Positions 37,670 through 54,170 of a stretch of 64,000 nucleotides of DNA are shown here, piece by piece. Source of the stretch: Mariprofundus ferrinatatus. GTDB lineage: Bacteria; Pseudomonadota; Zetaproteobacteria; Mariprofundales; Mariprofundaceae. The notes under the pieces are model-generated. The model was not told where the DNA came from and did no database searches. It was given only the letters and a program-made list of their open reading frames with translations. Location of the stretch: NCBI RefSeq assembly GCF_002795825.1, contig NZ_CP018800.1, positions 558,001 to 622,000 on the forward strand, read 5' to 3'. The translations under genes and the position numbers were made by a program. The number at the start of each line of letters is the position of its first letter. Position 1 is the first letter of the stretch.

Positions 37670-37745
37670 TCCCCGATAGTTCAGTTGGTAGAACGGTGGA
37701 CTGTTAATCCATATGTCGCAGGTTCGAGTCCTGCTCGGGGAGCCA
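37670..37745 (+). tRNA. tRNA-Asn (anticodon GTT)
   Basis: A complete 76-nt tRNA. The acceptor stem TCCCCGA (37670-37676) pairs with TCGGGGA (37735-37741), followed by the discriminator G and an encoded CCA. The anticodon loop CTGTTAATC carries GTT, and the T-arm GGTTCGAGTCC is standard. The sequence closely resembles E. coli tRNA-Asn. Confidence 0.97.
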
Positions 37746-37996: not shown

Positions 37997-38022
37997 GCGC
38001 TCGGGTAAAAGTGTGCTATAAG
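37995..38022 (+). promoter_or_regulatory. Candidate promoter P2
   Basis: TTGCGC (37995-38000), 16-nt spacer, TATAAG (38017-38022), preceded by the same GTGTGC as P1. Confidence 0.5.
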
Positions 38023-38122
38023 AACTTGAACTGGGTTGGTAGGGGCAAGGTTTGACGCTTGAGAAGAGAGACGGGCTTTGCCGGTGAGTGCTTTTGACGC
38101 AGGGAATATATATCGGATTTTC

Positions 38123-38151
38123 TTGCGGGTGAAAAAATACGCGTCTATAGT
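38123..38151 (+). promoter_or_regulatory. Candidate promoter P3, best match, nearest to the operon
   Basis: TTGCGG (38123-38128), 17-nt spacer, TATAGT (38146-38151). This is the strongest sigma70-like match in the region and would give a leader of about 55 nt before the GTG at 38215, AT-rich near its end. Confidence 0.6.
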
Positions 38152-38214
38152 CGGCGCGGGATTTGGGTTTATTAAATTATATTAATGTTTCATTATATAG
38201 GTGGGGGAATAACA

Positions 38215-40569
38215 GTGATAAATAATATATATCATTTCATGACGAAGTTTGCATTTCTGGCGCTAGCGGTTTTGCTGCTTGGTGCGCAGGCGGAAGCCAG
38301 GATTGGTGACAACCTGAAAATTGCCGGTACGTCGGCGACGGTTTACTCAGGGCCAAACGTATCGTCTACTAAAGTTTTGACTGCTGACGGTAAAATGAAG
38401 CTGATCGAGATGGAGCGGCAGGCAGGCTGGGTTCTTGTTACCGTGCGTCCATCCGGCGTGCAGGGCTGGGTTCGCGAAAAAGAGCTCAGGATTGCAAGCA
38501 GCCAGAGCGAGGTGGCATCCTCTCCTGCTTCGGCGCGCAAGGCGCTGAATGCGCTCGGTCCGGTTCGTACTATTACGCTGGATGACATGGGCTTTAAGAA
38601 GGGTCATATTTTCCGTGGTTCGCAGAGTGGTCATTCACAGGACTTCTATTTTGAAACCCCAATGGATTCCAGTGTCAGGGGCGGCGTTTTCCGTATCTCC
38701 TACCGTGCATCAAACATGCTGCACTCCCTCTCCAATATCAGGGTTTTTGCCAACGATGTCCCCCTGGCGCAGGCAAATGCCATATCGGACGGGCTGGTTC
38801 ATGAGATGGCAATTGTGCTGCCAGGTTCCATGTTCCGCGACGGCATGGTGAAAATCAGTGTCGAGTCCGGCACCTTGGTTGATGAGAATCGCTGTCTCGA
38901 TATTCGTTCCGGTGGTGGCTTCCTCCATATCCTGCCGAGCTCTGCTCTGGATATCACCTACAGCTCGATCGACCGTTCGATCCGTGATGCATGGCGCATG
39001 CTGCCCCACAAGGTCACTGTAACCCTTCCTGCCGGCAAGCTGGAGGCTTCTCAGTTCGCCGCAGCCATGTCAGTGATGGAGTTGCTGGCCAATTCCGGTC
39101 GTGAGGTGATGATCAAGCGCATGCCTGAAATGGGTGATGTGGTGATTGCCCAGAAGGGTGAAATCGTTTCCGTGCTGAATCAGCGCGGTAAGCAGCTGAC
39201 CAAGGGCTTTGTCGAGCTTAAGAGTAACGACGTGTTCCAGACCCCCGCAGACAACATTAACCTGATCAAATCAGGCAACAGTGTCTCCGTTGCAGTTTCG
39301 GAGCCTTATGATGTTCAACCCCTTTATCTTGTTGATGAGCGTTGGGAGCTGCTGACCGCAGGCCGCCACTACGACATCAACAGGCCTGATCGCTTCTACT
39401 CTCTGAGGGCTCTGCCTAAAGATTCGGGCAGTGATCACTTCTCTCTGCCGCTCTATCAGCTGGACACTTCTCCGCATTACGTGGCAACCGAGACTGTATG
39501 GGCGACCACCCTTTCTCCGCGTGATCTGCCATCGGGAACCCGTCTGGATATGCTCAGCCTGAGCATCATTGCACCCGTTCGCTGGGAGGCTGATCCTACC
39601 TATGAGCTCTATGCATTCCTGAATGATGTACTGGTGTTCTCAAAGCGCCTTGAGAATGACGGTCTGAAGCATAATTACTCTGTGCCGCTGCCGGTTGAAT
39701 ATCAGCAGCAGTACAACAACCTGCGCTTTGTTGTGCAGCATGATGTGGTTTCAGGCGACTGCTACGGCATTATGCCTACCGACTTCGTTCAGATTACTCC
39801 GGACACCTCGATCATTGTTAAGAAGACTGATGAAGAGCCGAAGAAGTTCTCCGGTCTTTCACAGTACTTCTCGTCCGGTTTCGATATGTTCATTGCTGAT
39901 AAATACCTGAGTAACCCTGAGAATGCACTCTACCTGATTTCCCGTGTAGCAGCTGATCTCCCGATCGTGATGGATTACTCAAAAATCCGTTTCCTGAAAG
40001 AGAGTGATCAGCTGGATCCGAACGGGCCATTTGTCGCATTCGGCAATTTCAACCAGGAGGGCCTCAATGCACCGCTTCGCACGGATCAGGGCAAGGTCGA
40101 GATCAGGGACAGGGATGGTCAGTCATTCTTCAGTGTAAATGCGCTGCCGAATATCACTATCGCTGAAATTGTGGGAGACTCATCCGGCCACGGCCTGCTG
40201 GTGATCCCGTCCGATCAGATCATGCACGACTTCAGCAAGAAGCTGCGCCTGATCGAAGGCGATGTAGCATTCATCGATACGCACGGTGTGCTGCTTAACG
40301 TTGACAGCAAACAGCCAACGCTGGCTGAGGTCTACTATCCGGATACGAAGGATTGGTTCGCAGTGCTTGGCGAGTACCGTTTCTGGCTGCTCGGCCTGCT
40401 CTGGTTCCTGCTCAGTCTGGCTATCGTCTACGTATTCCGTATGACTCGCCGCCAGCAGGTGGAAGACCACGATGTTGAGATGCCGACCTCTGATGATCTG
40501 CACTCACAGCGGGCACACCACACCAATATCAACATTGAGGATGATGACCTTCCAAGCTCAAGTAAGTGA
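38215..40569 (+). CDS. BcsB-like exopolysaccharide synthase periplasmic subunit with SH3b domain
   Basis: A 784-residue envelope protein. A signal peptide (FAFLALAVLLLGAQAEA) is followed by a bacterial SH3 domain (about 28-92, ending VQGWVREKEL), a long BcsB-like beta-rich region with GHSQDFYFETPMDS and LDIRSGGGFLHILP, and a single C-terminal helix (about 722-742) with a basic cytoplasmic tail. BcsB guides cellulose through the periplasm and holds the synthase; the same role with the GT2 encoded next is inferred. The SH3b part is not normal for BcsB and may contact peptidoglycan. The GTG at 38215 follows GTGGGGGAA; ATG codons at 38185 and 38239 are alternatives. Confidence 0.8.
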   Translation: MINNIYHFMTKFAFLALAVLLLGAQAEARIGDNLKIAGTSATVYSGPNVSSTKVLTADGKMKLIEMERQAGWVLVTVRPSGVQGWVREKELRIASSQSEVASSPASARKALNALGPVRTITLDDMGFKKGHIFRGSQSGHSQDFYFETPMDSSVRGGVFRISYRASNMLHSLSNIRVFANDVPLAQANAISDGLVHEMAIVLPGSMFRDGMVKISVESGTLVDENRCLDIRSGGGFLHILPSSALDITYSSIDRSIRDAWRMLPHKVTVTLPAGKLEASQFAAAMSVMELLANSGREVMIKRMPEMGDVVIAQKGEIVSVLNQRGKQLTKGFVELKSNDVFQTPADNINLIKSGNSVSVAVSEPYDVQPLYLVDERWELLTAGRHYDINRPDRFYSLRALPKDSGSDHFSLPLYQLDTSPHYVATETVWATTLSPRDLPSGTRLDMLSLSIIAPVRWEADPTYELYAFLNDVLVFSKRLENDGLKHNYSVPLPVEYQQQYNNLRFVVQHDVVSGDCYGIMPTDFVQITPDTSIIVKKTDEEPKKFSGLSQYFSSGFDMFIADKYLSNPENALYLISRVAADLPIVMDYSKIRFLKESDQLDPNGPFVAFGNFNQEGLNAPLRTDQGKVEIRDRDGQSFFSVNALPNITIAEIVGDSSGHGLLVIPSDQIMHDFSKKLRLIEGDVAFIDTHGVLLNVDSKQPTLAEVYYPDTKDWFAVLGEYRFWLLGLLWFLLSLAIVYVFRMTRRQQVEDHDVEMPTSDDLHSQRAHHTNINIEDDDLPSSSK

Positions 40570-40583
40570 ATTGAAGGGCTGTC

Positions 40584-42656
40584 ATGACTCAGATGGAGAA
40601 ACCACAACCTCGTAGGATTGGTGACTGCTTACTTGAAAAGAAGCTGATCACCGATGAGCAGCTGGCCGAAGCCCTTGCGATGCAGCAAGGGCAAGGCCTG
40701 CGCCTTGGAGAGGTGATTCTGGCAAAGGGCTGGATCACCGCTTCAGAGCTTTACGATGCATTGACCGACCACTTCAGAAAGGGGCGCATTGGCGATCTGC
40801 TGGTGGAGAGAGGGCTGTTAACTCACGAGCAGCTTGAAGAAGCGATTGGCATGCAGAAGAAGTGGGGAACCAGGGTAGGTGATATTATCCTGTCCAAGGC
40901 TTGGGTGCGCCCCTTCCTCTTCTATCAGGTTCTGGCTGAGCATTTTGACAAGCCGTTCGTCAACCTCATTGATAATGCGCCGGATCTGTCACTTATCGAC
41001 ACCAAGCATTATCACATCTATTCGGAGAAGCTGTTTATTCCGTGGCGGAAGGAGCATGGCCTGACCAAGGTTGCTGTTGCCGATCTGGATGCCGAGGTGA
41101 TGAGTGAGATCGAGAAGGTGGTCGATGGCCCTGTCGATTTTGTTGTAACCTCCAAGTTCGACATTGTCTGGACACTGCAGAAATATGGAAATGAGTTTTT
41201 CAGTGAGAAATCAGTTCATGAGTTAAGAAGGGATCAGCCGCAGTACTCAGCCAGTACGGTATTTACTGACAGACAGCTGCTTTTTGTCGGCATCCTTATG
41301 ACACTGACTATGCTTTCTCTTGCGATCTGGCCGATCGGCACGCTGATCGCGATCAATGCGTTTATTACCGTGTTTCTGATCCTGAACTTCGGGCTGCGTG
41401 TACTCTTTACCTGGGTTGGTGGTGACAGGCGTTTTGATAACTATATTACCGATGCGGAGGTAGAGGCACTCAACGATGCCGAGCTTCCTACCTACACAGT
41501 GCTTGTGCCGATGTACAAGGAGTCCGAATCGCTGCCGCATCTTGCGGAAGCGCTGAGGAATCTTGATTACCCGCTCTCCAAGCTTGATATCAAGATTATC
41601 CTCGAAGAGGATGATGAAGAGACAATTCAGACTGCAAAGGATCTTGCTCTGGAGGGAATCTTTGAAATTATCAGGGTTCCTGACTCCTTGCCGAAAACAA
41701 AACCAAAGGCGTGCAACTATGCGCTGAATTTCTCACGAGGTGAGTTGGTTACCATTTATGACGGTGAGGATGCTCCTGAGGCTGATCAGCTCAAAAAGGT
41801 GGTTCTGGCATTCAGAAAGTCTTCATCGAATACGGCAGTAATCCAGGCAAGGCTCAACTACTTCAACGTGACAGAGAACTGGCTGACGCGCATGTTTACC
41901 ATGGAGTATTCGCTCTGGTTTGATTTCTATCTGCCCGCACTTGATGCGCTGAAGATCCCGATCCCTCTCGGGGGAACCTCCAACCACTTTAAAATGAAGG
42001 TGCTAAGAGAGCTGCAGGGTTGGGATCCGTACAATGTGACAGAGGATTGTGACCTTGGGGTTCGCCTGACTCAGCGTGAGTACCGTGTGGGTGTTGTGAA
42101 CTCCACGACCTACGAAGAGGCCAATAATGATCTTCACAACTGGATTCGTCAGCGCTCACGCTGGCTGAAAGGGTATATGCAGACCTACCTGGTACATATG
42201 CGTAATCCTATCCATTTTTACAGGACGCTTGGCCATGTCGGCTTCTGGGGTTTCCAGTTCTTTATCGGCGGCACCATTGTCAGTGCCCTGGTCATGCCGA
42301 TTCTGCTGTTGGTATTCTTCTCCTGGCTGGTTTCCCAGACAGTTCTGTTCGATCAGATTTATCCTGCTGCCCTGCTTTATATCAATTTGATAAATCTTCT
42401 GGTGGGTAATGGATTTCTGGTTTATCTCTTCATGCTTAGCGGATTCAAGCGCCACTACTATGCGCTGATGCCCTGGGCCATGACGGTTCCGGTCTACTGG
42501 ATCATGATGTCTTGGGCTGGATTTAAGGGTCTGTGGCAGTTGATCTTCAACCCGTTTTACTGGGAGAAGACACACCATGGCCTGACCAGCTTTGCGACCA
42601 CCAGTGATGTGGGTGAGCACACGATGCAAGCGGAGAAAAAGGGGGCTAATAAATGA
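40584..42656 (+). CDS. GT2 polymer synthase with two N-terminal MshEN-type domains
   Basis: A 690-residue membrane glycosyltransferase. Residues 11-63 and 68-120 each form a pair of 24-residue MshEN/GspE-N motifs separated by five residues (RIGDCLLE..., RLGEVILA..., RIGDLLVE..., RVGDIILS...). MshEN domains bind c-di-GMP in pilus and secretion ATPases. Two helices (about 229-275) precede a processive-type GT2 domain (about 300-530) with LEEDDEE, YDGEDAPE, TEDCDLG and the QxxRW-like RQRSRWLKG. Several helices follow. There is no PilZ domain. It is probably the catalytic subunit making the polymer that the BcsB-like protein receives. A GAAGGG site precedes the ATG. Confidence 0.85.
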   Translation: MTQMEKPQPRRIGDCLLEKKLITDEQLAEALAMQQGQGLRLGEVILAKGWITASELYDALTDHFRKGRIGDLLVERGLLTHEQLEEAIGMQKKWGTRVGDIILSKAWVRPFLFYQVLAEHFDKPFVNLIDNAPDLSLIDTKHYHIYSEKLFIPWRKEHGLTKVAVADLDAEVMSEIEKVVDGPVDFVVTSKFDIVWTLQKYGNEFFSEKSVHELRRDQPQYSASTVFTDRQLLFVGILMTLTMLSLAIWPIGTLIAINAFITVFLILNFGLRVLFTWVGGDRRFDNYITDAEVEALNDAELPTYTVLVPMYKESESLPHLAEALRNLDYPLSKLDIKIILEEDDEETIQTAKDLALEGIFEIIRVPDSLPKTKPKACNYALNFSRGELVTIYDGEDAPEADQLKKVVLAFRKSSSNTAVIQARLNYFNVTENWLTRMFTMEYSLWFDFYLPALDALKIPIPLGGTSNHFKMKVLRELQGWDPYNVTEDCDLGVRLTQREYRVGVVNSTTYEEANNDLHNWIRQRSRWLKGYMQTYLVHMRNPIHFYRTLGHVGFWGFQFFIGGTIVSALVMPILLLVFFSWLVSQTVLFDQIYPAALLYINLINLLVGNGFLVYLFMLSGFKRHYYALMPWAMTVPVYWIMMSWAGFKGLWQLIFNPFYWEKTHHGLTSFATTSDVGEHTMQAEKKGANK

Positions 42657-44152
42657 AGGCCTTTCTGATGCATCAGCGAAACAGGGATAACGTCATTATT
42701 GTTGTTATGTCGGTAATCGCCCTCTCTGCTTTGACCGCATGGCTGCTTTCGCATGGCTTCATGTTTGACGGTGCCTCCCATCGCTGGGCAAAGGTGCTGG
42801 GTGTGTTGGGGTCTGAGGATGTTCGCCTCGAAAATCTGAGCATGCTCTACCCGCATCTGCCGCTTTATGCACTGGTGCCGTTTTACTATCTGCCCGGTAC
42901 AGGCTATGGCGCTGTCCCCTATTTTGTGTCGGTTCTGTTTGCCGGTGGGTTAATCGGACTCTTCCTCTGGCATATGCGCCACCTTGATGTGGTTGCCTAC
43001 AAGCGGCTGCTGATCGTGTTCCTTCTGGTTGTCCACCCGGCATTCCTCTGGGGTGCGACGAACGGAAGTCAGCTGGCCATGAGCATGCTGATGTTCTATC
43101 TGCTCTACCATGCATGTCAGAACATGATTGCAGAGCATGATGTGCACGCCTACATCTCCCTCAGTATCATTCTTGCAGTATTCTTCTTCGTGGATGGTTC
43201 CGCAGTATTCCTCTTCGTGGCTCTGCTGCCGATGCTGGCCGTTGTGGCTCCGAGAAGGCTGCTGATGGCATCGCCTGCGAGTATCTACTTTATTCTGTCG
43301 GTACCATTCTTCTTCTCTGTGCTGGCCTGGGCCTGGTTGAACTGGATCTTTGAATCTGACTTCCTCTACTTTGTTCAGGATCCGGAATCAACCTATCTGG
43401 GTGGATACATGGAGATGTTCAAGTACCCCTGGCTGGTCGATTTCGGCGGCGAGTTTTTCCAGGCGCTGATTGCAGCAACCGGCTATATGCTGGTGGCCTA
43501 TCCGATCATTATCTACTTCCTGTTCAGTACCTGGGACGAGGGGCTTCGATTCAGGGCGAGCTTCGTACTTTTTGTCCACCCGCTGCTGGCCATTGCGCTG
43601 GCAACCGATCAGTACTACCTGAGTCATCCGATGGAGATTCTGGTGTTGATCAACGCCAGTATTCTGGCAGAGATCACCTTCCTGGATATGGCGCGAAAGC
43701 GTGTCTACTGGAGTGTTATCTCCTTCCTCGTAGTGAGTCTTGTCGGTGGCTGGTGGATATTTATGGAGTCTGCCGACCCGAACATGAACCGGTGGGTTGA
43801 TTCGTTCAGAACAGAGCGTGTGATGATTGCTGACGAAGACGGATCGCTGAAGCTTGGACGCTGGTTAAACGAGAACCGCCGGGTAACCCTGATAGATGAG
43901 AGAAGCGGTTATAAAGCGATGGTGGCGCGAGGCGATGCCGAGGGGCTATACCTCTCCTTCACGAGTAAATTCAAGATTGCGCTGAACCACGAGTTTCCCG
44001 ATGTTGATCAGATTGTGGTTCCGGACCCGGACAGCGAAACCGGCAAAAAGGATAAGATTAGTCAGCGATACCCTCTGTTGTACAAAGAGGGAATGAAGGG
44101 CTACAGGCTGGTATACAAAGATAATATCTGGCGTGTCTACAGGAAGGTTTGA
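42653..44152 (+). CDS. Polytopic membrane protein of unknown function in exopolysaccharide operon
   Basis: A 499-residue inner-membrane protein with about ten hydrophobic segments over residues 15-370 and a soluble C-terminal part of about 130 residues. The layout, with an early periplasmic loop and a C-terminal periplasmic domain, recalls GT-C-type or PMT-like enzymes, but I see no decisive motif, so no reaction is assigned. It overlaps the synthase gene by four bases and the next gene by one, so it is surely part of the same operon. It may help polymerise, modify or translocate the glycan. Confidence 0.7.
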   Translation: MKAFLMHQRNRDNVIIVVMSVIALSALTAWLLSHGFMFDGASHRWAKVLGVLGSEDVRLENLSMLYPHLPLYALVPFYYLPGTGYGAVPYFVSVLFAGGLIGLFLWHMRHLDVVAYKRLLIVFLLVVHPAFLWGATNGSQLAMSMLMFYLLYHACQNMIAEHDVHAYISLSIILAVFFFVDGSAVFLFVALLPMLAVVAPRRLLMASPASIYFILSVPFFFSVLAWAWLNWIFESDFLYFVQDPESTYLGGYMEMFKYPWLVDFGGEFFQALIAATGYMLVAYPIIIYFLFSTWDEGLRFRASFVLFVHPLLAIALATDQYYLSHPMEILVLINASILAEITFLDMARKRVYWSVISFLVVSLVGGWWIFMESADPNMNRWVDSFRTERVMIADEDGSLKLGRWLNENRRVTLIDERSGYKAMVARGDAEGLYLSFTSKFKIALNHEFPDVDQIVVPDPDSETGKKDKISQRYPLLYKEGMKGYRLVYKDNIWRVYRKV

Positions 44153-45261
44153 TGGCGAAGCTGGCCTTTCTTCTTGGAGTGCTGATGGCATTGGGGGGCT
44201 GCGCTGTTAAAGAGGGCGGGCAAACTGCCAGCGCTCACCAGGCAAAGGCTACTGGGCAGTCGGAAGCATCTGAAATCTTTAAGAAGCGCAAGCAGGCCAG
44301 GCGCAGCTCATTCGGCAGAGATGAACTTACTCCGTGGCGGGGGTTCAATGCACTGCAGACATCAAGGGTTGCCTGGGACTCTTCAGCGGCAAGAAGATCG
44401 CTTATGCGCATGGGGGCGGTTGGAGCCAACGCTGTCGCCCTGATCCCGTTTGTGAGGCAGAGCAGTCCCTATTCGACGGCTGTCATGGGCGCTAATAATG
44501 TGACCGATGCGCAGTTGATCGCAGCTATAAAGAGCGCACACGAGCTGGGAATGAAGGTGGTTGTAAAGCCTCAGATTCTTGTGACCGGATCATGGGCAGG
44601 AGAGATCAGTTTCACTGACAGCGGGCAGCGCGATCGCTGGTTCGATAGCTACTCGGCGCATATCATCAGGTATGCCAGGCTGTCGCAGAGCATGGGTGTC
44701 GAGGCATTTGCTATCGGTACCGAACTGTCGAAAATCGCCAAGGATCTGCCGTGGCCAAGGCTGATTTCGCAGCTGCGCCGAGAGTTCAGGGGTGTCCTGA
44801 CCTACGCCGCTCACAACGTTGAGGGAGTGGAAAGGTTCCCTTACTGGGACAAACTGGATGTGATCGGTATTTCATCCTACCCATCGCTTGGCGACATGGG
44901 CGAGTATGATGAGATGCTGGCCCACATTGAGCTCAACCTCTACAAGCTCAGTCAGGCCGTTAAGGCGAACAGGCGTAAGCCTGTATGGCTTCTTGAGGTT
45001 GGTATTCCCTCGGCTGAAGGTGCCTCGAGCCAGCCATGGGAGTGGAGGTCGCTGGGAAAAGGCGGCCAGCGTACGGATCTGACGATGCAGACCGCCGCCG
45101 TGGCAGCCTGGCTCAACGCGATCAAGCGGCTGCAATATGTGGACGGTGTTTTCCTCTGGTGCTGGTACAGTGACCCGCAGGCCGGAGGCGAGGAAAATAT
45201 TGATTATACTGTACAAAATAAACCGTCAGAAATAGTTATCAGGCAATACTGGAGAAATTAA
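44152..45261 (+). CDS. GH113-like glycoside hydrolase lipoprotein
   Basis: A 369-residue lipoprotein: the signal peptide ends in a lipobox (MALGGC, Cys about 17). The body is a TIM barrel like GH113 and related clan GH-A proteins. The expected acid/base is Glu191 in FAIGTEL, and the expected nucleophile is Glu282 in WLLEVG; KVVVKPQI and DVIGISSYPS are further barrel strands. Polysaccharide operons often carry such a hydrolase to trim or release polymer (compare BcsZ). A +2 residue of Ala suggests the outer membrane. The TTG at 44149 is a less likely start. Confidence 0.78.
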   Translation: MAKLAFLLGVLMALGGCAVKEGGQTASAHQAKATGQSEASEIFKKRKQARRSSFGRDELTPWRGFNALQTSRVAWDSSAARRSLMRMGAVGANAVALIPFVRQSSPYSTAVMGANNVTDAQLIAAIKSAHELGMKVVVKPQILVTGSWAGEISFTDSGQRDRWFDSYSAHIIRYARLSQSMGVEAFAIGTELSKIAKDLPWPRLISQLRREFRGVLTYAAHNVEGVERFPYWDKLDVIGISSYPSLGDMGEYDEMLAHIELNLYKLSQAVKANRRKPVWLLEVGIPSAEGASSQPWEWRSLGKGGQRTDLTMQTAAVAAWLNAIKRLQYVDGVFLWCWYSDPQAGGEENIDYTVQNKPSEIVIRQYWRN

Positions 45262-45274
45262 GGAAGGGGAAGGT

Positions 45275-46138
45275 ATGAATATGAAGAATTTTCTAAGCAG
45301 GACAGCAGCATCTTTTATTGTTGCCGGTGGTTTGGTTGCCGCCGGTTCGGTCACAGCCCAGGCAAGCGCCTACATGCTCTCTGAAGGTCAGAACATGTAT
45401 ACGACCGGATTTACCTATTCCACAGCGACTGACTGGTTCAATCAGAACAGGAACCGGGTACCGCAGGGTTGTACTTCCAAAGATTACAGCTGGAACAACT
45501 CTTACACCTACGGCTACTCCTATTATACCAACCTGTTCGCCAGCGCATCTCTGGCCAATCAGGCGTGTGGAGCGGGTGCCAAATCGACCGGTTTAGGGGA
45601 TGTTACCCTGGGCATTCGGGGCCGCCTTGATATCACCCGTAACGGCAGAACGTGGGAGCTGGCAGCGATCATTCCAACCGGCTATGACGCTCAGAGGATC
45701 AACCGCCTTGGATACGGAAAGTTCGGTCTCTGGGGTGGTGTGGCATTTTCATCACAGAACACCGGCTGGGAAGAGAAGGCGCCCTCCTACTGGGAAGTCG
45801 GAACAGGTCTCAACTACTGGTTTGGCTCACCTGCCACACAGTGGAAGAGCTATGCGAAATGGTCCTGGCGCCTGGATGAAGATGGTGTGAACCGTATCGT
45901 TCTTAAGGGAACGCTCAAGCTTTCACTAAGGGATCATACGCCAGAGCCTATTCCTGCAGCCGGTGGCTTTTTCCGTAACTCAGGTGACTATGACGCGGGA
46001 GTTATCCAGGCTTCCTATGCGCGCAGGGTCTCTGATCAGTGGACAGTGGGTTTTGGCGTAGGTGAAACTATCTGGGGCCGCAATGTCAGTGCTTCGCGTT
46101 TTGCTGATATCTCGTTTACATACAGTTGGGATGACTGA
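45275..46138 (+). CDS. Outer-membrane beta-barrel protein
   Basis: A 287-residue exported protein. A clear signal peptide (TAASFIVAGGLVAAGSVTAQ then ASA) precedes alternating polar and aromatic strands such as YMLSEGQNMYTTGFTYS, FGLWGGVAFS and YWEVGTGLNYWFG. The C-terminus (FADISFTYSWDD) has the aromatic strand pattern, though not the ideal final Phe. It may be the pore that lets the polymer out, as no BcsC/AlgE-like gene is present; that is inferred from context only. An AAGGAAGGGGAAGG site precedes the ATG. Confidence 0.65.
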   Translation: MNMKNFLSRTAASFIVAGGLVAAGSVTAQASAYMLSEGQNMYTTGFTYSTATDWFNQNRNRVPQGCTSKDYSWNNSYTYGYSYYTNLFASASLANQACGAGAKSTGLGDVTLGIRGRLDITRNGRTWELAAIIPTGYDAQRINRLGYGKFGLWGGVAFSSQNTGWEEKAPSYWEVGTGLNYWFGSPATQWKSYAKWSWRLDEDGVNRIVLKGTLKLSLRDHTPEPIPAAGGFFRNSGDYDAGVIQASYARRVSDQWTVGFGVGETIWGRNVSASRFADISFTYSWDD

Positions 46139-46145
46139 GGTGACT

Positions 46146-48125
46146 ATGCTAAAACATAAATTGATCCGTCTGGCTGCAACAGCGTGTGCTGTGATGCTTG
46201 CTCCCATGATCGCTTACTCTGCAACTGATCATGAATTTAAAGAGGGGCACTTCCACTACTCTGATGAGGCGCTCGCCAATGCCAGAAAAGATGTCAAGAT
46301 GGTGGATATCAATGTATCCATGAATGGTACCGACGCCAGAGTGCTTTTCCTCAAGGATCCCAACGACAAATCGACTTTTGCTGCCGACTTTTCGATTGAG
46401 GGTGAGCGCTTTGAGGGAAGAATCAAGTCGTTCGGCAGCTCCACCCGCGCCATGAAGAAGAAGTCGATCATCCTGAAGATCAAGGGTGAGAAGTGGAAGG
46501 GTTACAAGAACATCTCTCTCAACTCTATGGGGTCTGACGGTTCGATGATGCGGGCCTGGATGGCGTGGGAACTGATGCGCGATATGGGTATGGTGGTGCC
46601 AGAAACCTACTATGCCCGGTTGAATATCAACGGTGAGTTTATCGGTTATTTCCTCTATATCGAGTGGTTGGGTGGTCGTTTTCTTGAGCGCAACGGTTAT
46701 GGCGCAGCCACGGAATTCTACCAGGCAACCGACGCCACCTATTGCGGAGATTTCAGGCACAGCCATGAGGTCGACAACTGCTGGACGAAGCTGGCTCCAC
46801 AAGGGGACGACAAATCCTCAATGAAGTCATTTGCCAGTGCCGTGCGTTCAGCTCCAATGGAGACATTCGATAAGTTTGTTGCGCAGAACTTCGATGATGA
46901 TTCACTGGTCAACTGGATTGTGACCAACACGCTGGTAAGTAATGGCGACACCTATAACAAAAATTATTTCATGGCCAAATCGGATAAAACCAAGAAGTGG
47001 CGGGTAATCCCATGGGATTATGATCTGACCTTCGGACAATCGTTCGATATGTTCGTGAAGTTTCCCGAGAGCCTTTTCAACGAGCGCTTCCAGTATTACT
47101 ACACCCCGGATCTGGGCGTCTTTAATCCGATGAAGGCCAAGACGCTGCTCAATGAGACGCTGAAGGCCCAGTTTTATGCGAAACTCAAACATCTGATCGG
47201 CAAGGAGAAAAACGGCCCTGAGAAGACCTTCGGCTGGTTCTCGCCAACCGTGATGCACGCCCGTGTTGAAAACCTTGCCCATGTGCTTGAAGCAGGGCAG
47301 GTCAAGCAGAAGTATGGTGCCCGTTCGCCTGAATCATATGACGAACAGTACGATGCCGTTTCGCACTTCGGACTTGCAAGACCATTCTACCTCGAGTCCA
47401 ATCTCTTCAGCACATTCGAGTGGTCCTATCGCAATACGGAGCAGATGAAGGAGTATGTGGCCTTTACACAGGGCAAGGATCTCTTCCCGGGATATCTTGA
47501 GAAAAAGGCAGATGAGGCACCGTCATCGAAGCTTGCCAAGGCCTCTGATGTTAAAAAGATCAAGGCTGATATCGCACCGGTTGGTGAGGCCAAGAAGGGG
47601 CTCGACGAGCATGAGTTCATGGCCAAGCTGCTCGAGAAGCCATTTACCGGCCGAAACGCATCTGTATCTTCCGATGACTCATTGGTGGTATTCGACCCGG
47701 GTTACGGTTATTTCCTGACGCGTCTTGATTTCAAGTCAAGTTACAAAGTGGCTGATTTTCAGGCAGAGGCTGAAGGTTTTAAGCCGCCGACTTACATTTT
47801 CGAAGGCACCTCTCCCGATCAGTGTATCCAGCGCTCATGGGTGCTCTTCTCGAGGATTCCTTCACTAAATATCAAAGCGGATATCATGCTGGAGTATTTT
47901 GATGAGCATTCGCAGAAAAATGAGCTGGGCGGCATTAAGAATGAGCATGCAGTCAACCTCTGGGTACATAAGGGTGAAGCATGGATGCCGCTGATGACTG
48001 AAGTGAACCAGAAGTCGAACACCCTGAAAACTTACGATTTCAACCTGCAGGCAGGAAGGATTTACCGTTTTATCGCCTGTGCAGCTCCGGAATCCAAGCT
48101 CTACAGCAAGCCAGTGGGCAGGTGA
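46146..48125 (+). CDS. CotH-family kinase-like secreted protein
   Basis: A 659-residue exported protein. A signal peptide (LIRLAATACAVMLAPMIAYSA) is followed by a CotH kinase-like domain: FEGRIKSFGSSTRAMKKKSI (Lys-rich nucleotide loop region), YKNISLNSMGSDGSMMR, and VIPWDYDLTFG with acidic residues Asp291 and Asp293 in the catalytic position. CotH proteins phosphorylate spore-coat proteins in Bacillus and have related extracellular kinase members elsewhere. The last 200 residues have no recognised domain. The ATG at 46146 gives the signal peptide; it lies seven bases after the preceding stop and the gene ends the operon. Confidence 0.82.
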   Translation: MLKHKLIRLAATACAVMLAPMIAYSATDHEFKEGHFHYSDEALANARKDVKMVDINVSMNGTDARVLFLKDPNDKSTFAADFSIEGERFEGRIKSFGSSTRAMKKKSIILKIKGEKWKGYKNISLNSMGSDGSMMRAWMAWELMRDMGMVVPETYYARLNINGEFIGYFLYIEWLGGRFLERNGYGAATEFYQATDATYCGDFRHSHEVDNCWTKLAPQGDDKSSMKSFASAVRSAPMETFDKFVAQNFDDDSLVNWIVTNTLVSNGDTYNKNYFMAKSDKTKKWRVIPWDYDLTFGQSFDMFVKFPESLFNERFQYYYTPDLGVFNPMKAKTLLNETLKAQFYAKLKHLIGKEKNGPEKTFGWFSPTVMHARVENLAHVLEAGQVKQKYGARSPESYDEQYDAVSHFGLARPFYLESNLFSTFEWSYRNTEQMKEYVAFTQGKDLFPGYLEKKADEAPSSKLAKASDVKKIKADIAPVGEAKKGLDEHEFMAKLLEKPFTGRNASVSSDDSLVVFDPGYGYFLTRLDFKSSYKVADFQAEAEGFKPPTYIFEGTSPDQCIQRSWVLFSRIPSLNIKADIMLEYFDEHSQKNELGGIKNEHAVNLWVHKGEAWMPLMTEVNQKSNTLKTYDFNLQAGRIYRFIACAAPESKLYSKPVGR

Positions 48126-48171
48126 TAGCTTCTAGCGGTATATAGTCTTCCGGCGTATGCCTGTAATAACA

Positions 48172-48209
48172 GGGGACCCCGGCTTGATCGGGGTTCCCCT
48201 TTGTTTTTT
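48172..48209 (+). terminator. Rho-independent terminator of the exopolysaccharide operon
   Basis: GGGGACCCCG (48172-48181) pairs with CGGGGTTCCCC (48189-48199) with one bulged T, then TTTGTTTTTT. It marks the end of the operon starting at 38215. The rest up to 48350 holds nothing else I can support. Confidence 0.88.
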
Positions 48210-48350: not shown

Positions 48351-49622
48351 ATGACGAATCTGATCGCTAGAGCGTGGGCGGATTTTCGCAGCCCGGAGGG
48401 TGTTGCGACCCTGCGCTTTGCCATTCGCCTGTTTCTGATCCTTCTGGCCTACTATCTGCTGAAACCGGTTCGTGAGGAGCTGATTCTCGATGGCGGCAGC
48501 GCCGAGATCCGTAGCTATGCACTGGCCGGACAGGCGGCACTGCTGCTGATACTCGTGCCATTCTACAGTCAGATCATCAAACACCTGCATGGTGACAAGC
48601 TGTTCCATATCGTCACCCTCTTTCTGGCAGCCAATATCGGGGTCTTCTACCTGCTCGGCTCGTCTGGTATGGATATCGGTGTGCCGTTCTTTATCTGGCT
48701 CGGCATATTCTCCGTCGTGCAGATCTCCCAGTTCTGGACCATGGTCAGCGATTATCACTGCGTGGAGAAGGGCAAGCGACTGACCTCCTACATAGCGATT
48801 GGTGGTTCGCTCGGTGCCATGATCGGGGCGATGATTGCCAAAACGCTCTATCTTGAACTCGGGGCCTTCGGCCTGATGCTTCTGGCGATCGGCATGCTGG
48901 TGGTGGCTGTGGTTTTGCCGGGCGCCAATGTGGAGATGCGCAAAGATCATCATGATGAATCGAATGATGAGTCGATCAGGCATATGCTGGGCGGCCTGAA
49001 AAGGGTAATGGATGTTCCCTACCTGCGCTGGATTGCTGCCTCCGTGGTGCTGCTCAACCTGATCAACTCAACCGGCGAGTATATTCTCGCCGACTTTGTA
49101 ACAGCTGAGAAAAGCGGCAAGGAGATCGGCGAGTTTTACTCTACGTTCTACCTCTATGTGAACATTGCCACGCTGGTTCTGCAGGCATTTGTCGTGCGGC
49201 CTCTGTATCAGGTGATCGGAGTGGGAGGGGCTTTGATCAGTCTGGCAGTGTTCAATCTTTCGATGTACCTCTCTGTACTCGCCTTCCCGGTTCTGGCCTG
49301 GTTTGCGATCGTGAAGATGGCCGATAACAGTATTGATTACTCGGTTGCTAATACGACCAAACAGATTCTTTTTCTTCCGCTGGACAGGTTTACCCGTTAC
49401 GAGGGAATGCTCGCCGTAAATACCTTTTTTACACGTTTTGGAGACCTGATTCAGGGTGGTATTATTTTCTTAGTCATCTCCGTTTTGGCCCTGCCAACCA
49501 TGTTTCTGGTCGGCAGCAATATCGTGCTCTGTCTGCTGTGGCTGTTTGTGACATTCAATGTCAGCAAGCGCTTTAAAAAGTGGAGTAAAGAGTCCGATGG
49601 CTTAGAGGAGCCGGCAGCATGA
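48351..49622 (+). CDS. NTP/NDP exchange (TLC) translocase-like membrane protein
   Basis: A 423-residue protein with about 12 helices. It carries the N-terminal YYLLKPVREELILDGG seen in TLC/Npt nucleotide translocase relatives of free-living bacteria, followed by ISQFWTMVSDY and GSLGAMIGAMIAK. In obligate intracellular bacteria this family swaps ATP for ADP, but free-living members have no settled role. It follows the exopolysaccharide operon after a terminator and precedes manC by 21 nt. A role in precursor or polymer export is only a contextual guess. Confidence 0.75.
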   Translation: MTNLIARAWADFRSPEGVATLRFAIRLFLILLAYYLLKPVREELILDGGSAEIRSYALAGQAALLLILVPFYSQIIKHLHGDKLFHIVTLFLAANIGVFYLLGSSGMDIGVPFFIWLGIFSVVQISQFWTMVSDYHCVEKGKRLTSYIAIGGSLGAMIGAMIAKTLYLELGAFGLMLLAIGMLVVAVVLPGANVEMRKDHHDESNDESIRHMLGGLKRVMDVPYLRWIAASVVLLNLINSTGEYILADFVTAEKSGKEIGEFYSTFYLYVNIATLVLQAFVVRPLYQVIGVGGALISLAVFNLSMYLSVLAFPVLAWFAIVKMADNSIDYSVANTTKQILFLPLDRFTRYEGMLAVNTFFTRFGDLIQGGIIFLVISVLALPTMFLVGSNIVLCLLWLFVTFNVSKRFKKWSKESDGLEEPAA

Positions 49623-49643
49623 ACAATTTTGTGGGGGAGCATT

Positions 49644-51056
49644 ATGGCAACATCAGTTAAGGGAATCATTCTTGCAGGCGGATCAGGCAGTCGCCTCTGG
49701 CCCCTATCAAGGCAGCAGCTTCCCAAGCAGTTTCTCAATATCGGCGGGGCTAGCAGCATGCTCAGCGCAACCATTGAGCGCCTTGACCCCCTGGTGGGCC
49801 ATGATGATATCTGGGTCGTTACGGGGGAAACGCATGCGACCGGTGAGGCGTTCTCTGAGCTGGAGGGGCTGAACCAGATTCTTGAGCCGTGTGGCCGTAA
49901 TACAGCGCCCGCTATCGCCATTGCTGCAGCACTGATGCAGGACCTCAGCGGCGAGGATCCGGTTATGGTGGTGCTCCCGGCCGACCATATCGTGGCCAAC
50001 AAGGAGGCCTTTCAGGCATGCCTGAGCAAGGCGATTGAGGTGGCCCAGGAGGATCGGCTGGTCACTTTCGGCATTGTGCCCAACGCACCAGAAACCGGGT
50101 TTGGTTATATTCAGGCTGATGCGGCCGGCGGAGACGGTGTCCGAAAAGTGCTGCGCTTCGTGGAGAAACCCGATATCCAGAATGCTCAGCGCATGTTGGA
50201 TGACGGTAATTACTACTGGAACTCCGGCATGTTTGTCTGGAAGGCATCTGTAATTATCGAAGAGGTGGAGAAATACATTCCTGAGATGGCGGCGCTGCTG
50301 AATGAGATGAGGAGTCGCTGGAACGGCAAAGAGAAATGGCAGGAGGTGATTCGCAGCAGTTTTGAGAAGATGCCCGACATTTCGATCGACTACGGCATCA
50401 TGGAACGGTCAGAACGGGTCTCTCTGGTGCCTGCTGAGATCGGCTGGTCCGATGTTGGAAGCTGGGATGCGGTCCATGAAATGGCGAAACATGATGCTGA
50501 TGGTAATGAGATGAGCGGTAATGTGATGGCAATCGATTGCCGCAACACCCTGCTTCGAAGTGAGAAGGCGCTGATCGCCGCGGTAGGGATTGAAGACATT
50601 ATTGCCGTTGAAACACCCGATGCGATTCTGCTCTGCAAGGCGGGGCAGAGTCAGCGAGTGAAGGAGATTGTCGACAACCTGAAAGAGGGTGAGGGACGTT
50701 ACCATGTCGAGCATGTCACGGTGCGCAGGCCCTGGGGAAGCTATACGGTACTGGAGGCTCGCGGTGATGGCTATCAGATCAAGCGGATTGAGGTGAAACC
50801 GGGCGCTCGTCTGAGCATGCAGTCGCACCAGCACAGAACCGAGCACTGGGTCGTGGTTGCGGGAACTGCGACTGTTACCTGCGGCAATCTGGTTAAAACC
50901 GTGTCCAAAAATGAAAGCGCCTATATTCGAATCGGTGAGGTCCATCGCCTGGAAAATCGCGGCAAGATTCCCGTACAGCTGATCGAAGTTCAGGTGGGCG
51001 ATTATCTCGGCGAGGATGATATTGAACGTTTTGAGGATATGTACGGCCGCACCTGA
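49644..51056 (+). CDS. manC: Mannose-1-phosphate guanylyltransferase / mannose-6-phosphate isomerase
   Basis: A 470-residue bifunctional enzyme of the ManC/AlgA type that provides GDP-mannose. The N-terminal nucleotidyltransferase shows ILAGGSGSRLWPLSRQQLPK and FVEKPD. The C-terminal cupin isomerase has RPWGSYTVLEARGDGYQIKR and SMQSHQHRTEHWVVVAG with metal-binding His residues. The ATG at 49644 follows GTGGGGGAGC. Location after the polymer operon suggests mannose or a derived sugar in the product. Confidence 0.93.
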   Translation: MATSVKGIILAGGSGSRLWPLSRQQLPKQFLNIGGASSMLSATIERLDPLVGHDDIWVVTGETHATGEAFSELEGLNQILEPCGRNTAPAIAIAAALMQDLSGEDPVMVVLPADHIVANKEAFQACLSKAIEVAQEDRLVTFGIVPNAPETGFGYIQADAAGGDGVRKVLRFVEKPDIQNAQRMLDDGNYYWNSGMFVWKASVIIEEVEKYIPEMAALLNEMRSRWNGKEKWQEVIRSSFEKMPDISIDYGIMERSERVSLVPAEIGWSDVGSWDAVHEMAKHDADGNEMSGNVMAIDCRNTLLRSEKALIAAVGIEDIIAVETPDAILLCKAGQSQRVKEIVDNLKEGEGRYHVEHVTVRRPWGSYTVLEARGDGYQIKRIEVKPGARLSMQSHQHRTEHWVVVAGTATVTCGNLVKTVSKNESAYIRIGEVHRLENRGKIPVQLIEVQVGDYLGEDDIERFEDMYGRT

Positions 51057-51163
51057 TCTGATGTGGCGGGTTAATCCTCAAGGGTTTCCGTGTTCCTGAG
51101 TCGATTCTGATGTATGCGCCTTGCCCTTGCAAAGCTGGCCTTTGCAGGGAGTATTGGCATACG

Positions 51164-52393
51164 ATGAAGTCGATCAGGGTCATATCTGGCATTGTTGCAC
51201 TGTTGCTTATGTCGCTCTCCTCTCAGGTGAGTGCAGTAGCTGGTGATGGCCTGGTTCGCGATGTGCGTCTCTGGACCGCCCCTGATCATTCGCGTCTGGT
51301 ATTCGACCTGAATCAGAAGATTGAATATAAAGTTTTTCCTCTTCATAACCCTGAGCGCATAGTTATTGATATGGAAAGGACCCAGCTGAAAGCGAATCTG
51401 AACAGCCTGCAGCTTCCGGATCCGGTTGTGCAGAGTATTCGCCATGGAAAACCGACTTCCGGCACACTACGCGTGGTGATGGATGTGAAGGAGAGGGTGC
51501 AGCCGCGCACATTCCTGCTCAAGCCGATGCAGGGGAAACCTTACCGTCTGGTGGTGGATCTCTCTCGCCCTGAACAGGCGAAACAGGCAGCCATGCGATC
51601 CGGTGAATCCAGGGCGAAAAAGGGGCTGGTGATTGCGATTGATGCCGGCCACGGGGGTGAAGACCCGGGAGCGATCGGTCCTCGTAAGTTATACGAGAAA
51701 ACAGTGACGCTGGCGGTAGCAAAAGAGCTTGCCAAGATCGTGGATGCGACACCGGGTATGAATGCGGTGCTGATTCGAAACGGTGACTATTTTGTACCGT
51801 TGAAGAAGAGGGTTTATCTGGCACGCAAGGCCAAGGCAGACATGATGATCAGTATCCATGCTGATGCGGTTCGTCAGCGTAATGTTGAAGGCTCAAGTGT
51901 CTATACGCTCTCTGAACGTGGGGCCACACAGGATCGGGCCGCAAGGGCGCTGGCCGCAAAAGAGAATGCCGCTGATGAGGTGGGAGGAGTCGAGTTTGAT
52001 ACGGTGGATGATCCGATGGTGACACAGATTCTTGGTGACATGTTCCGTCGCGACAGCCTCAACAGCTCGCAAATCCTCGCAGAGTCAATTATCGGCAAGC
52101 TCAAACATGCCGGACCGGTCAAATACAGTGCCCCGAAACGGGCGCGCTTTTTCGTACTGGGTGCTATGGAGATTCCAAGTGTGCTGGTCGAGCTGGATTA
52201 TATCTCCAATCCAGCCCGGGAGAAGAAACTGAAAAGCAGGGACCACCAGAAGAAGCTGGCATCCGCACTGTTCAACGCCAGCGTAAGTTTTTTCCAGAAG
52301 ATGGGGCGGCTTAAGAGCACACCTGATCAGGCAATGCTTCCTGCCGATTCAGCAACTGCCTTGCAGTATGCTGTGAGCGAGCAGGGGCTCTGA
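51164..52393 (+). CDS. amiC: N-acetylmuramoyl-L-alanine amidase (AmiC type)
   Basis: A 409-residue periplasmic zinc amidase that splits septal peptidoglycan. A signal peptide (ISGIVALLLMSLSSQVSA) leads to an AMIN domain (about 25-130) and an Amidase_3 domain (about 155-385) with IDAGHGGEDPGAIG, SIHADA and the catalytic Glu in LVELDYISN. The ATG at 51164 yields a proper signal peptide; the upstream frame does not. It is followed by msbA. Confidence 0.93.
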   Translation: MKSIRVISGIVALLLMSLSSQVSAVAGDGLVRDVRLWTAPDHSRLVFDLNQKIEYKVFPLHNPERIVIDMERTQLKANLNSLQLPDPVVQSIRHGKPTSGTLRVVMDVKERVQPRTFLLKPMQGKPYRLVVDLSRPEQAKQAAMRSGESRAKKGLVIAIDAGHGGEDPGAIGPRKLYEKTVTLAVAKELAKIVDATPGMNAVLIRNGDYFVPLKKRVYLARKAKADMMISIHADAVRQRNVEGSSVYTLSERGATQDRAARALAAKENAADEVGGVEFDTVDDPMVTQILGDMFRRDSLNSSQILAESIIGKLKHAGPVKYSAPKRARFFVLGAMEIPSVLVELDYISNPAREKKLKSRDHQKKLASALFNASVSFFQKMGRLKSTPDQAMLPADSATALQYAVSEQGL

Positions 52394-52394
52394 G

Positions 52395-54170
52395 ATGGAA
52401 GGGTCGACTGAACTCTATCGACGACTTCTGGCATTTCTCTTCCCTTACAAGGGACGCCTAACCCTTGCCACACTCTGTATGGTGGTACTCGCCGCCTGTA
52501 CGGCTGCCATGGCCTGGATGCTCAAGCCTGTGCTGGATGAAGCACTTGGTGGCCAGAACCGAGACCTGATCTACCTGATTCCGCTGTTGATTATAGGCCT
52601 CTACGTTCTTAAGGGCGGAGCCTATTTCGGCCAGGCATATTTGATGGGCTATATCGGTCAGCGTGTCATCTATGATATCCGGAACCTGCTCTATGAACGG
52701 TTGACGGCCCAGTCCCTGGCCTTTTTTTCCCACCGCAAGACAGGCGAGTTGCTGGCCAGACTCTCCTACGATGTGACGCTGGTTCAGTCAGCGGTGAGTA
52801 CAGCAGTAACGGCGCTGATGCGTGACGCGATTTCAATCATATTCCTGCTGGCCGTTGTCTTTATACAGGACTGGCTGCTTGCTTTGATCGCCATGCTGGT
52901 CTTTCCGGCCGTGATCTATCCGATTGCCCGTTTCGGTCGCAAAATGCGCCGTGCCACACTGGATGGACAGGCCTCGATGGGAGACCTGACCAGCCTGCTG
53001 GAGGAGACAGTCGGTGGCATACGGGTGGTCAAGGCCTTTGGGATGGAGGAGTACGAGCGCAGCCGTTTCCGCAAGTTTACCGGCGATTTCCTTGCTCACC
53101 AGCTCAAGGTATTCCGGGTACATGCACTCTCATTTCCGATTATGGAGCTGCTTGCCGGCTTCGGTATCGCCGGTGTGCTCTTTTACGGCGGTATGCGGGT
53201 GGCATCGGGCGAAACTACTGCCGGTACGCTGGTCTCATTCCTGGCTGCGGTGATCATGCTCTACGAGCCGGTTAAAAGGCTTTCGCGTGCCAATAACGAG
53301 ATCCAGCAGGGACTCGCCGCAGCCGAACGCATTTTCGAGGTGGTCGATGAGCCGATTCAGGTTTACGACCTGGATGACGCGAAAGAGCTGGCGTCCTTCT
53401 CCGATGCGATCGTCTTTGATGATGTCAGTCTCATCTATCCCGGAACGGAGAAAAGTGTACTGGAGCGGATCAGCTTCACCGTGCGGGCAGGGCAGGTCGT
53501 GGCGTTGGTCGGACGCAGCGGTGCCGGGAAATCCTCTCTGGCTAACCTCGTTCCCCGCTTTATCGATGTAACCGAAGGGAGTGTTCTGATTGATGGCCAC
53601 GACATCCGGAACGTCACACAGGCCTCACTGCGCAATCAGATTGCACTGGTGACACAGGAGATCATCCTGTTTAACGACACCATCCTCAACAACATCGCCT
53701 ACGGCCATGAGGATATTGATTTTCAGCGTGTGGAGGAGGTCGCCCGCGCCGCAAATGCACACGAATTTATTTCCCAGCTGCCGGATGGCTATAACACCCT
53801 GGTTGGTGAGCGCGGTGCGATACTCTCCGGCGGTCAGCGTCAGCGATTGTCACTGGCACGTGCACTGCTGAAGGATTCACCGATCCTCATTCTTGATGAG
53901 GCAACCAGCGCACTGGATACGGAGTCAGAACGACTTGTGCAGCAGGCGATCGACCTGCTGATGAAGAACCGTACTGTTATCGTGATTGCCCATCGGCTTT
54001 CCACCATCCGTGATGCCGACTGTATTGTTGTGCTTGATCAGGGGCGCGTGGTGCAGAGCGGCAGGCATGATGAACTGCTGGAGCAGGGTGGTATCTATGC
54101 CGAGCTGCACCAGATGCAGTTCCAGAACGGTTCAAGTGAAACTGCAGAGAATCCGGCAGTAGTGATTTAA
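52395..54170 (+). CDS. msbA: Lipid A export ABC transporter (MsbA)
   Basis: A 591-residue half transporter: six membrane helices fused to an ATPase domain. The latter has Walker A GRSGAGKSSLANLV, LSGGQRQRLSLARALL (signature) and ILILDEATSALD (Walker B). The N-terminal LYRRLLAFLFPYKGRL and length match MsbA. It flips lipid A core across the inner membrane. It starts one base after the amiC stop and ends one base from the convergent ppx/gppA gene. Confidence 0.9.
   Translation: MEGSTELYRRLLAFLFPYKGRLTLATLCMVVLAACTAAMAWMLKPVLDEALGGQNRDLIYLIPLLIIGLYVLKGGAYFGQAYLMGYIGQRVIYDIRNLLYERLTAQSLAFFSHRKTGELLARLSYDVTLVQSAVSTAVTALMRDAISIIFLLAVVFIQDWLLALIAMLVFPAVIYPIARFGRKMRRATLDGQASMGDLTSLLEETVGGIRVVKAFGMEEYERSRFRKFTGDFLAHQLKVFRVHALSFPIMELLAGFGIAGVLFYGGMRVASGETTAGTLVSFLAAVIMLYEPVKRLSRANNEIQQGLAAAERIFEVVDEPIQVYDLDDAKELASFSDAIVFDDVSLIYPGTEKSVLERISFTVRAGQVVALVGRSGAGKSSLANLVPRFIDVTEGSVLIDGHDIRNVTQASLRNQIALVTQEIILFNDTILNNIAYGHEDIDFQRVEEVARAANAHEFISQLPDGYNTLVGERGAILSGGQRQRLSLARALLKDSPILILDEATSALDTESERLVQQAIDLLMKNRTVIVIAHRLSTIRDADCIVVLDQGRVVQSGRHDELLEQGGIYAELHQMQFQNGSSETAENPAVVI

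Follow-up and report, generated by a model that had tools for sequence, protein, structure and literature searches.

A D-type paralog of the sfz cluster in the dread-forming Mariprofundus ferrinatatus CP-8, a putative c-di-GMP-gated exopolysaccharide machine

The six co-directional open reading frames at 38185-48125 (+) of the Mariprofundus ferrinatatus CP-8 DNA analysed here (64,000 nucleotides; hereafter the window) are sfz1-sfz6 and form a real operon. In our reading, in which we place about even confidence, this operon is a D-type sfz paralog encoding a c-di-GMP-gated exopolysaccharide machine, whose polymer would probably be the organic core of the iron-coated dreads. The gene set itself is already published: Koeksoy et al. 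2021 described sfz1-sfz6 with the same predicted functions as candidate genes for making twisted stalks, adjoined by a cassette of tlc, PMI, amidase and MsbA genes, and reported less conserved homologs (<40% identity) in the dread-formers CP-5 and CP-8 (PMC8250860). The window shares with that cluster the six genes in order and the tlc/PMI/amidase/MsbA cassette, and is, as judged by sequence, its divergent, non-stalk form. The elements that appear to be new here are a split into two cassette types (D and S), the presence of both types in M. micogutta ET2, and a difference in the SH3 content of Sfz6; the main text of PMC8250860 makes no mention of a second sfz cluster in ET2.

An earlier note on this DNA had proposed a tight six-gene operon, and this is confirmed by the spacing of the genes from sfz1 to sfz6 (14, -4, -4, 13 and about 1-7 nt, that is, 4-base overlaps or short gaps; Table 1). 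Chance is excluded because the same six genes recur in the same order in Mariprofundus and in unrelated genera. In gene order, the Pfam and NCBIfam searches gave BcsB-like, MshEN plus GT2, no match, GH113, no match and CotH, which agrees with the four family calls made previously from the sequence (1.7e-10 for BcsB, 3e-21 for GT2, 1.7e-49 for GH113 and 3e-42 for CotH). Of the proposed operon limits, the strong terminator stands and is the strongest of the region (stem 48172-48198, 11 pairs followed by CTTTGTTTTT), but the promoter region was not borne out, since the promoter scan detected no sigma-70-like site on the plus strand around 38000-38185. No riboswitch was found upstream of the operon, where the tRNA alone scored. 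The reading frame of Sfz1 is given from 38185, but its true start may be at 38215 (GTG) or a later ATG. The GC content of the window is 54.3%.

Table 1. Features of the D-type sfz locus and its surroundings (positions in the window)
Feature	Position	Strand	Description
tRNA-Asn(gtt)	37670..37745	+	ARAGORN, Rfam; upstream edge of the site holding an S or D cassette
sfz1	38185..40569	+	794 aa; predicted BcsB-like periplasmic protein; Pfam BcsB 1.7e-10
sfz2	40584..42656	+	690 aa; putative c-di-GMP-sensing GT2 polysaccharide synthase, xagB homolog
First MshEN_N motif pair of Sfz2	40614..40772	+	residues 11-63; 24+5+24, complete
Second MshEN_N motif pair of Sfz2	40785..40943	+	residues 68-120; 24+5+24, complete
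sfz3	42653..44152	+	499 aa; polytopic membrane protein, predicted GT-C fold, xagC homolog
sfz4	44149..45261	+	370 aa; GH113-type glycoside hydrolase lipoprotein, xagD homolog
sfz5	45275..46138	+	287 aa; predicted 12-stranded outer-membrane beta-barrel, candidate export pore
sfz6, D-type	46140/46146..48125	+	about 660 aa; start GTG 46140 or ATG 46146; ORF opens 46062
Intrinsic terminator	48172..48208	+	11-pair stem, 8 GC, T-rich tail
tlc	48351..49622	+	TLC/NTT-like ATP/ADP-translocase-family transporter; PF03219 7.2e-9
GMP/PMI bifunctional enzyme	49629..51056	+	GDP-mannose supply; TIGR01479 1.6e-166
AMIN-amidase and MsbA-like ABC exporter	51110..54170	+	Pfam; remaining members of the cassette that adjoins sfz in PMC8250860

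The synthase was surveyed in 78 Zetaproteobacteria genomes, 23 of them Mariprofundus, and Sfz2 was found in 19 of these 23 and, beyond them, in a single genome from a different family. The Mariprofundus copies include group D (the window, CP-5, L024, L025, L026 and L055; Sfz2 79-89% identical to that of the window) and group S (PV-1, P3, EBB-1, KV and others; 63-68%), the genome nearest to the window being that of CP-5 (Sfz2 89%). Both groups are recovered in a quick tree of Sfz2 (SH-aLRT = 99 for D and 99 for S, joined at 100) and in a tree of Sfz1, Sfz3, Sfz4 and Sfz5 combined (support of 100 for each), and D and S are, on these phylogenies, sister paralogous cassettes that evolve separately. 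Complete D and S cassettes occur side by side in the genomes of M. micogutta ET2 (L055 and L028, respectively) and of the MAG OFTM123 (L024 and L029), and D-type genes are also present in L026 and G055. In the rpoB tree the D-only and S-only genomes are intermingled; for instance, the S-only KV and G053 group with CP-8 and CP-5 with full support. One Mariprofundus MAG (G061; C69 and C165) has two extra, very divergent rpoB-like ORFs of 969 and 1528 aa, which are perhaps derived from phage or contamination.

The flanks of the window operon (PP2C, kinase and tRNA-Asn on one side, tlc and PMI on the other) are the same as those of the S cassette of KV in DNA comparison, and D and S are therefore alternative occupants of one site. 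Moreover, the tRNA-Asn spot of the window shows 87-94% DNA identity to the sequence upstream of four S cassettes (L035, L028, L034 and L029). The tRNA-Asn/tlc site is occupied by an S cassette not only in KV but also in ET2, EBB-1 and OFTM123, and in the two genomes with both types the S copy lies beside tlc and the D copy elsewhere. This pattern fits an ancient duplication followed by differential loss or exchange. The PP2C phosphatase and its neighbour, a CHASE2-domain Ser/Thr kinase, are encoded divergently from the operon (34327-37511, -) and keep their place upstream of the cassette, whether S or D, in several Mariprofundus genomes; they are a possible regulatory pair.

The sfz and xag-like genes named in the earlier note match all six genes one to one, and its extracellular fibre remains a fair reading, but the stalk that it also considered does not. 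The hosts of the published cluster form stalks (PMC8250860), whereas M. ferrinatatus CP-8 is described with dreads only, short structures never >10 um (Chiu et al. 2017, PMC5513912); the term "stalk operon" hence does not hold for the host strain. A strict stalk operon in a strain able to make twisted stalks under other conditions would agree with the presence of all six sfz genes in the same neighbourhood, yet we regard it as very unlikely given the report of dreads alone, the separate S copy retained by ET2, and the low identity of the window proteins to those of stalk-formers (Sfz1 43-50%, Sfz3 46-51% and Sfz5 24-28%, with Sfz2 at 63-68%). The 50-70% identity level of Table 2 in PMC8250860 is not reached by window Sfz1, Sfz3 and Sfz5, while the 63-68% measured for Sfz2 differs from the <40% published for CP-5 and CP-8. 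Sfz6 also argues against a strict stalk operon, as the window copy has no SH3 array and carries PWDYD where 12 of 12 complete S-type copies have PWDYN.

Window Sfz6 contains a CotH domain (PF08757, 3.3e-42) and no other domain in Pfam, matches Bacillus cereus CotH (5jd9, 2.8e-19) with the motifs NGDTYNKNY and IPWDYD, and starts with a signal peptide as judged by eye; it is probably a secreted CotH-family kinase-like protein and a putative kinase. Published Sfz6 proteins combine one or more N-terminal SH3 domains with CotH over 1415-2270 aa (PMC8250860), and the S-type copies examined here have 1491-2175 aa, with 4, 11 and 6 SH3_3 stretches before CotH in the three that were scanned. In contrast, the D-type copies (675-887 aa, and about 660 aa in the window) and the outgroup copies consist of CotH alone, without SH3, and carry PWDYD or PWDFD. 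Inactivity of S-type Sfz6 through the change of PWDYD to PWDYN was considered and dropped: the altered residue is the second Asp in the alignment with 5jd9, which we take not to be the catalytic one, and no claim of inactivity is made for this reason. OFTM123 possesses a third CotH gene (G057, C24:1368-2336; 675 aa) beyond its S- and D-cassette copies.

In all, 24 loci combine tlc with sfz6, and tlc is present at 0 of 57 loci lacking sfz6; where sfz6 occurs without tlc, the locus is the additional D copy of ET2 or of OFTM123, or its sequence stops short. Across the Zetaproteobacteria, the set of genomes with CotH is essentially that with the cluster-type tlc, apart from incomplete assemblies (for example G059 and G065). 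A general requirement of CotH proteins for a TLC transporter was rejected from a survey of 397 Pseudomonadota genomes, as CotH outside the sfz set was identified in 8 of the 397 sampled, and a TLC protein of any kind is encoded in only one of these 8, on a separate contig. The CotH/TLC pairing is therefore specific to the sfz cassette, and this limitation weakens the idea that the transporter supplies ATP. The host genome also encodes a second, distant TLC-family transporter (G000:C1:1477367-1478503; 27% identity), as do several relatives.

The putative synthase Sfz2 joins an MshEN region (Pfam 3.6e-8; NF053729, an MshE-related c-di-GMP domain in NCBIfam, 3e-32) to a BcsA-like GT2 domain (Glyco_trans_2_3, 3.3e-21) with TED and QxxRW motifs, and its matches in the structure database are BcsA (4hg6) and MshE (5htl). 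Two motif pairs, RIG...Q and RLG...H in the first and RIG...Q and RVG...H in the second, each with 5 residues between the motifs, agree with the published MshEN consensus of 24-residue motifs and a 5-residue spacer, and Sfz2 is thus a likely c-di-GMP receptor through both pairs. Koeksoy et al. 2021 read the N-terminal region of Sfz2 as EpsE-like and assigned c-di-GMP binding to Sfz1 (PMC8250860). We reject the published binding through RxxD/RxxxR in Sfz1 because this protein, with an N-terminal signal or transmembrane segment and a C-terminal transmembrane segment, is predicted to be periplasmic. The SH3b domain previously noted on the BcsB-like protein recurs at the same position in several relatives, but it scores below the Pfam cut-off (residues 50-99; SH3_3 0.0056; 17.3 vs 27 bits). 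No relatives of Sfz2 were found among viral contigs.

The GT2 exopolysaccharide synthase of Escherichia coli NfrA/NfrB is switched on by c-di-GMP through an MshEN domain (PMC8669469). Sfz2 gives a weak match to the NCBIfam NfrB profile (2.7e-13), in which MshEN lies C-terminally, so that the domain order is reversed relative to Sfz2. We know of no BcsB, GH113, GT-C or CotH partner in NfrA/NfrB as described. With BcsA/BcsB the window shares the GT2 core and the BcsB-like partner, and a divergent cellulose (bcs) operon could be proposed from Sfz1 and from the TED and QxxRW motifs of the BcsA-like domain. We find this highly improbable: there is no PilZ sensor domain, no BcsC-type TPR barrel and no BcsZ, GH113 stands in place of GH8, a GT-C protein is added, and the barrel has 12 rather than 16 strands. 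The domain search with Pfam found no PilZ, BcsC, TPR or deacetylase gene in the cluster, and so the earlier exclusion of cellulose, alginate, Pel and Pga operons is upheld. Nor can dreads here be ascribed to bcs genes, as has been proposed for Ferriphaselus (PMC4643136), since there is no PilZ-GT2 fusion across the whole host genome.

Pfam gave no useful match for the Sfz3 and Sfz5 families, and structure models were informative for both. The AF2 model of Sfz3 (pLDDT 90.3, pTM 0.90) matches ArnT (5ezm; Z 18.7, rmsd 5.3, 413 residues aligned); the matches span the whole length, with ArnT first and then OST, PMT, ALG and Emb enzymes, and the first 49 rows of the fold search are all GT-C or GPI-transamidase members. 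On this model Sfz3, which was formerly without a function, carries a GT-C glycosyltransferase fold; the "unknown polytopic protein" of the first description is indeed polytopic but need no longer be called unknown. Two acidic residues of the family, E60 (26 of 28) and D181 (27 of 28), are predicted to face the periplasm. GT-C enzymes conserve an acidic residue where their first periplasmic loop begins; most Sfz3 members have D or E at position 39, but PV-1 has A there. Sfz5 had been proposed as an outer-membrane barrel, which is supported by its AF2 model (pLDDT 80.9) with 12 strands; it shares this fold with the COG4313 channel 4rl8 (Z 24.4, rmsd 2.4) and FapF (5o65, Z 22.0) at about 10% identity.

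Sfz4 carries an LGGC lipobox and matches a beta-mannanase (5ylh, 9e-29), E192 and E283 aligning with both catalytic Glu residues. The GMP/PMI gene lies beside the cluster in Mariprofundus, in Gallionella (L043) and at five alphaproteobacterial loci (L063, L068, L071, L074 and L086). Its position and the GH113 assignment of Sfz4 suggest that the polymer contains mannose; this is a lead only, because GMP/PMI is missing at most other loci.

The six-gene order, complete or nearly so, is also found in MAGs of Gammaproteobacteria (L036, L038, L039, L041, L045 and L048; MAG taxonomy taken as given), in Azoarcus (L044) and in a MAG of Gallionella sp. STF1_75 (L043; 7887-17486), where all six genes including CotH are present. 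In Thiobacillus (L037) the order is kept but sfz4 was not detected, Ferriphaselus (L046) has sfz1-4 only, and Xanthomonas retains the sfz2-4 core. Two of the loci (L039 and L045) have about 1 kb of additional sequence between sfz4 and sfz5, probably an extra gene. In the literature sfz5 and sfz6 are said to be missing in Betaproteobacteria, and the Gallionella and Azoarcus loci indicate that this does not apply to all of them. The expectation that the whole set would occur only in stalk formers failed, as it is present in CP-8, in CP-5 and in several unrelated Proteobacteria; hence the sfz genes are not stalk-specific.

The first four genes had been called bcsB and xag-like in Ferriphaselus (Kato et al. 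2015, PMC4643136), and xagBCD of Xanthomonas have the same order as Sfz2, Sfz3 and Sfz4, with profile matches at L054 to L094; the BcsB-like gene is common to the window and to Ferriphaselus sfb1-4 / CDS9-12 (PMC4643136; PMC3609779). These xagABCD/sfb relatives lack a CotH gene and tlc, and in them the first MshEN pair, corresponding to residues 11-63, is weak or absent. As for xagA, the Sfz5 profile gave weak matches (1e-5 to 1e-9) to an ORF upstream of sfz2/xagB, at L059, L060, L064, L097 and L100 only.

The distribution bears on another explanation, in which the cassette makes a general polysaccharide for biofilm, flocs or attachment like Xanthomonas xag and dreads arise by another route. 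xagABCD supports biofilm, with xagA and xagB acting in that of Xanthomonas oryzae; bacteria for which neither stalks nor dreads are known carry homologous core genes and in some cases all six genes; and the CP strains are pelagic floc formers that possess Wsp and Tad attachment systems (PMC5513912), so the polymer could be floc or holdfast glue. However, in the small number of Mariprofundus isolates with names, the D/S type agrees with the kind of biomineral described for them, and the genes are absent from stalk-less Zetaproteobacteria outside Mariprofundus, except G002. We consider such a general role a serious possibility, although somewhat improbable.

The dread would, on our preferred reading, be the product of the D-type operon. 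Binding of c-di-GMP to the two MshEN pairs of Sfz2 would allow its GT2 domain to polymerise and extrude a beta-glycan, with Sfz1 as periplasmic partner by analogy with BcsAB. Sfz3 may add sugars from a polyprenyl-phosphate donor at the periplasmic face, as its modelled fold suggests; Sfz4 may trim the chain with the aligned active-site Glu residues; Sfz5 would be the outer-membrane pore for the chain; and Sfz6 might modify or anchor the fibre. A mannose-containing polymer, made from the GDP-mannose of the adjoining GMP/PMI, is the favoured guess. In favour of this reading, the S copy is present in PV-1, P3 and EBB-1, and both cassettes occur in ET2, which forms thin filaments unlike stalks, with stalks produced by a minority of cells, a phenotype that is ambiguous (PMC8250860). 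Against it count Ferriphaselus, in which one sfz1-4 cluster and bcs genes accompany the formation of both dreads and stalks, and position 39 of Sfz3, which is not acidic in PV-1. A joint scheme can be drawn, in which the D or S cassette carried or expressed would set dread or stalk, the SH3 array of Sfz6 would decide bundling, and ATP exported by TLC would let the kinase phosphorylate the fibre outside the cytoplasm and create an iron-nucleating polymer; we think it quite unlikely.

Twisted stalks and dreads both serve as biosignatures of microbial iron oxidation, and a builder gene has been shown for neither. The occurrence of the whole set outside the iron oxidisers calls for caution in using sfz genes alone as a metagenomic marker of stalks. 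Four of the six parts are now more sharply assigned, and with the folds of Sfz3 and Sfz5 and the MshEN sensors, hypothetical proteins would become a machine with testable parts. The D/S split is itself testable, since ET2 carries both types and close relatives carry either one at the same site, and the idea that the cassettes shape the fibre can be tested because one cultured species holds both.
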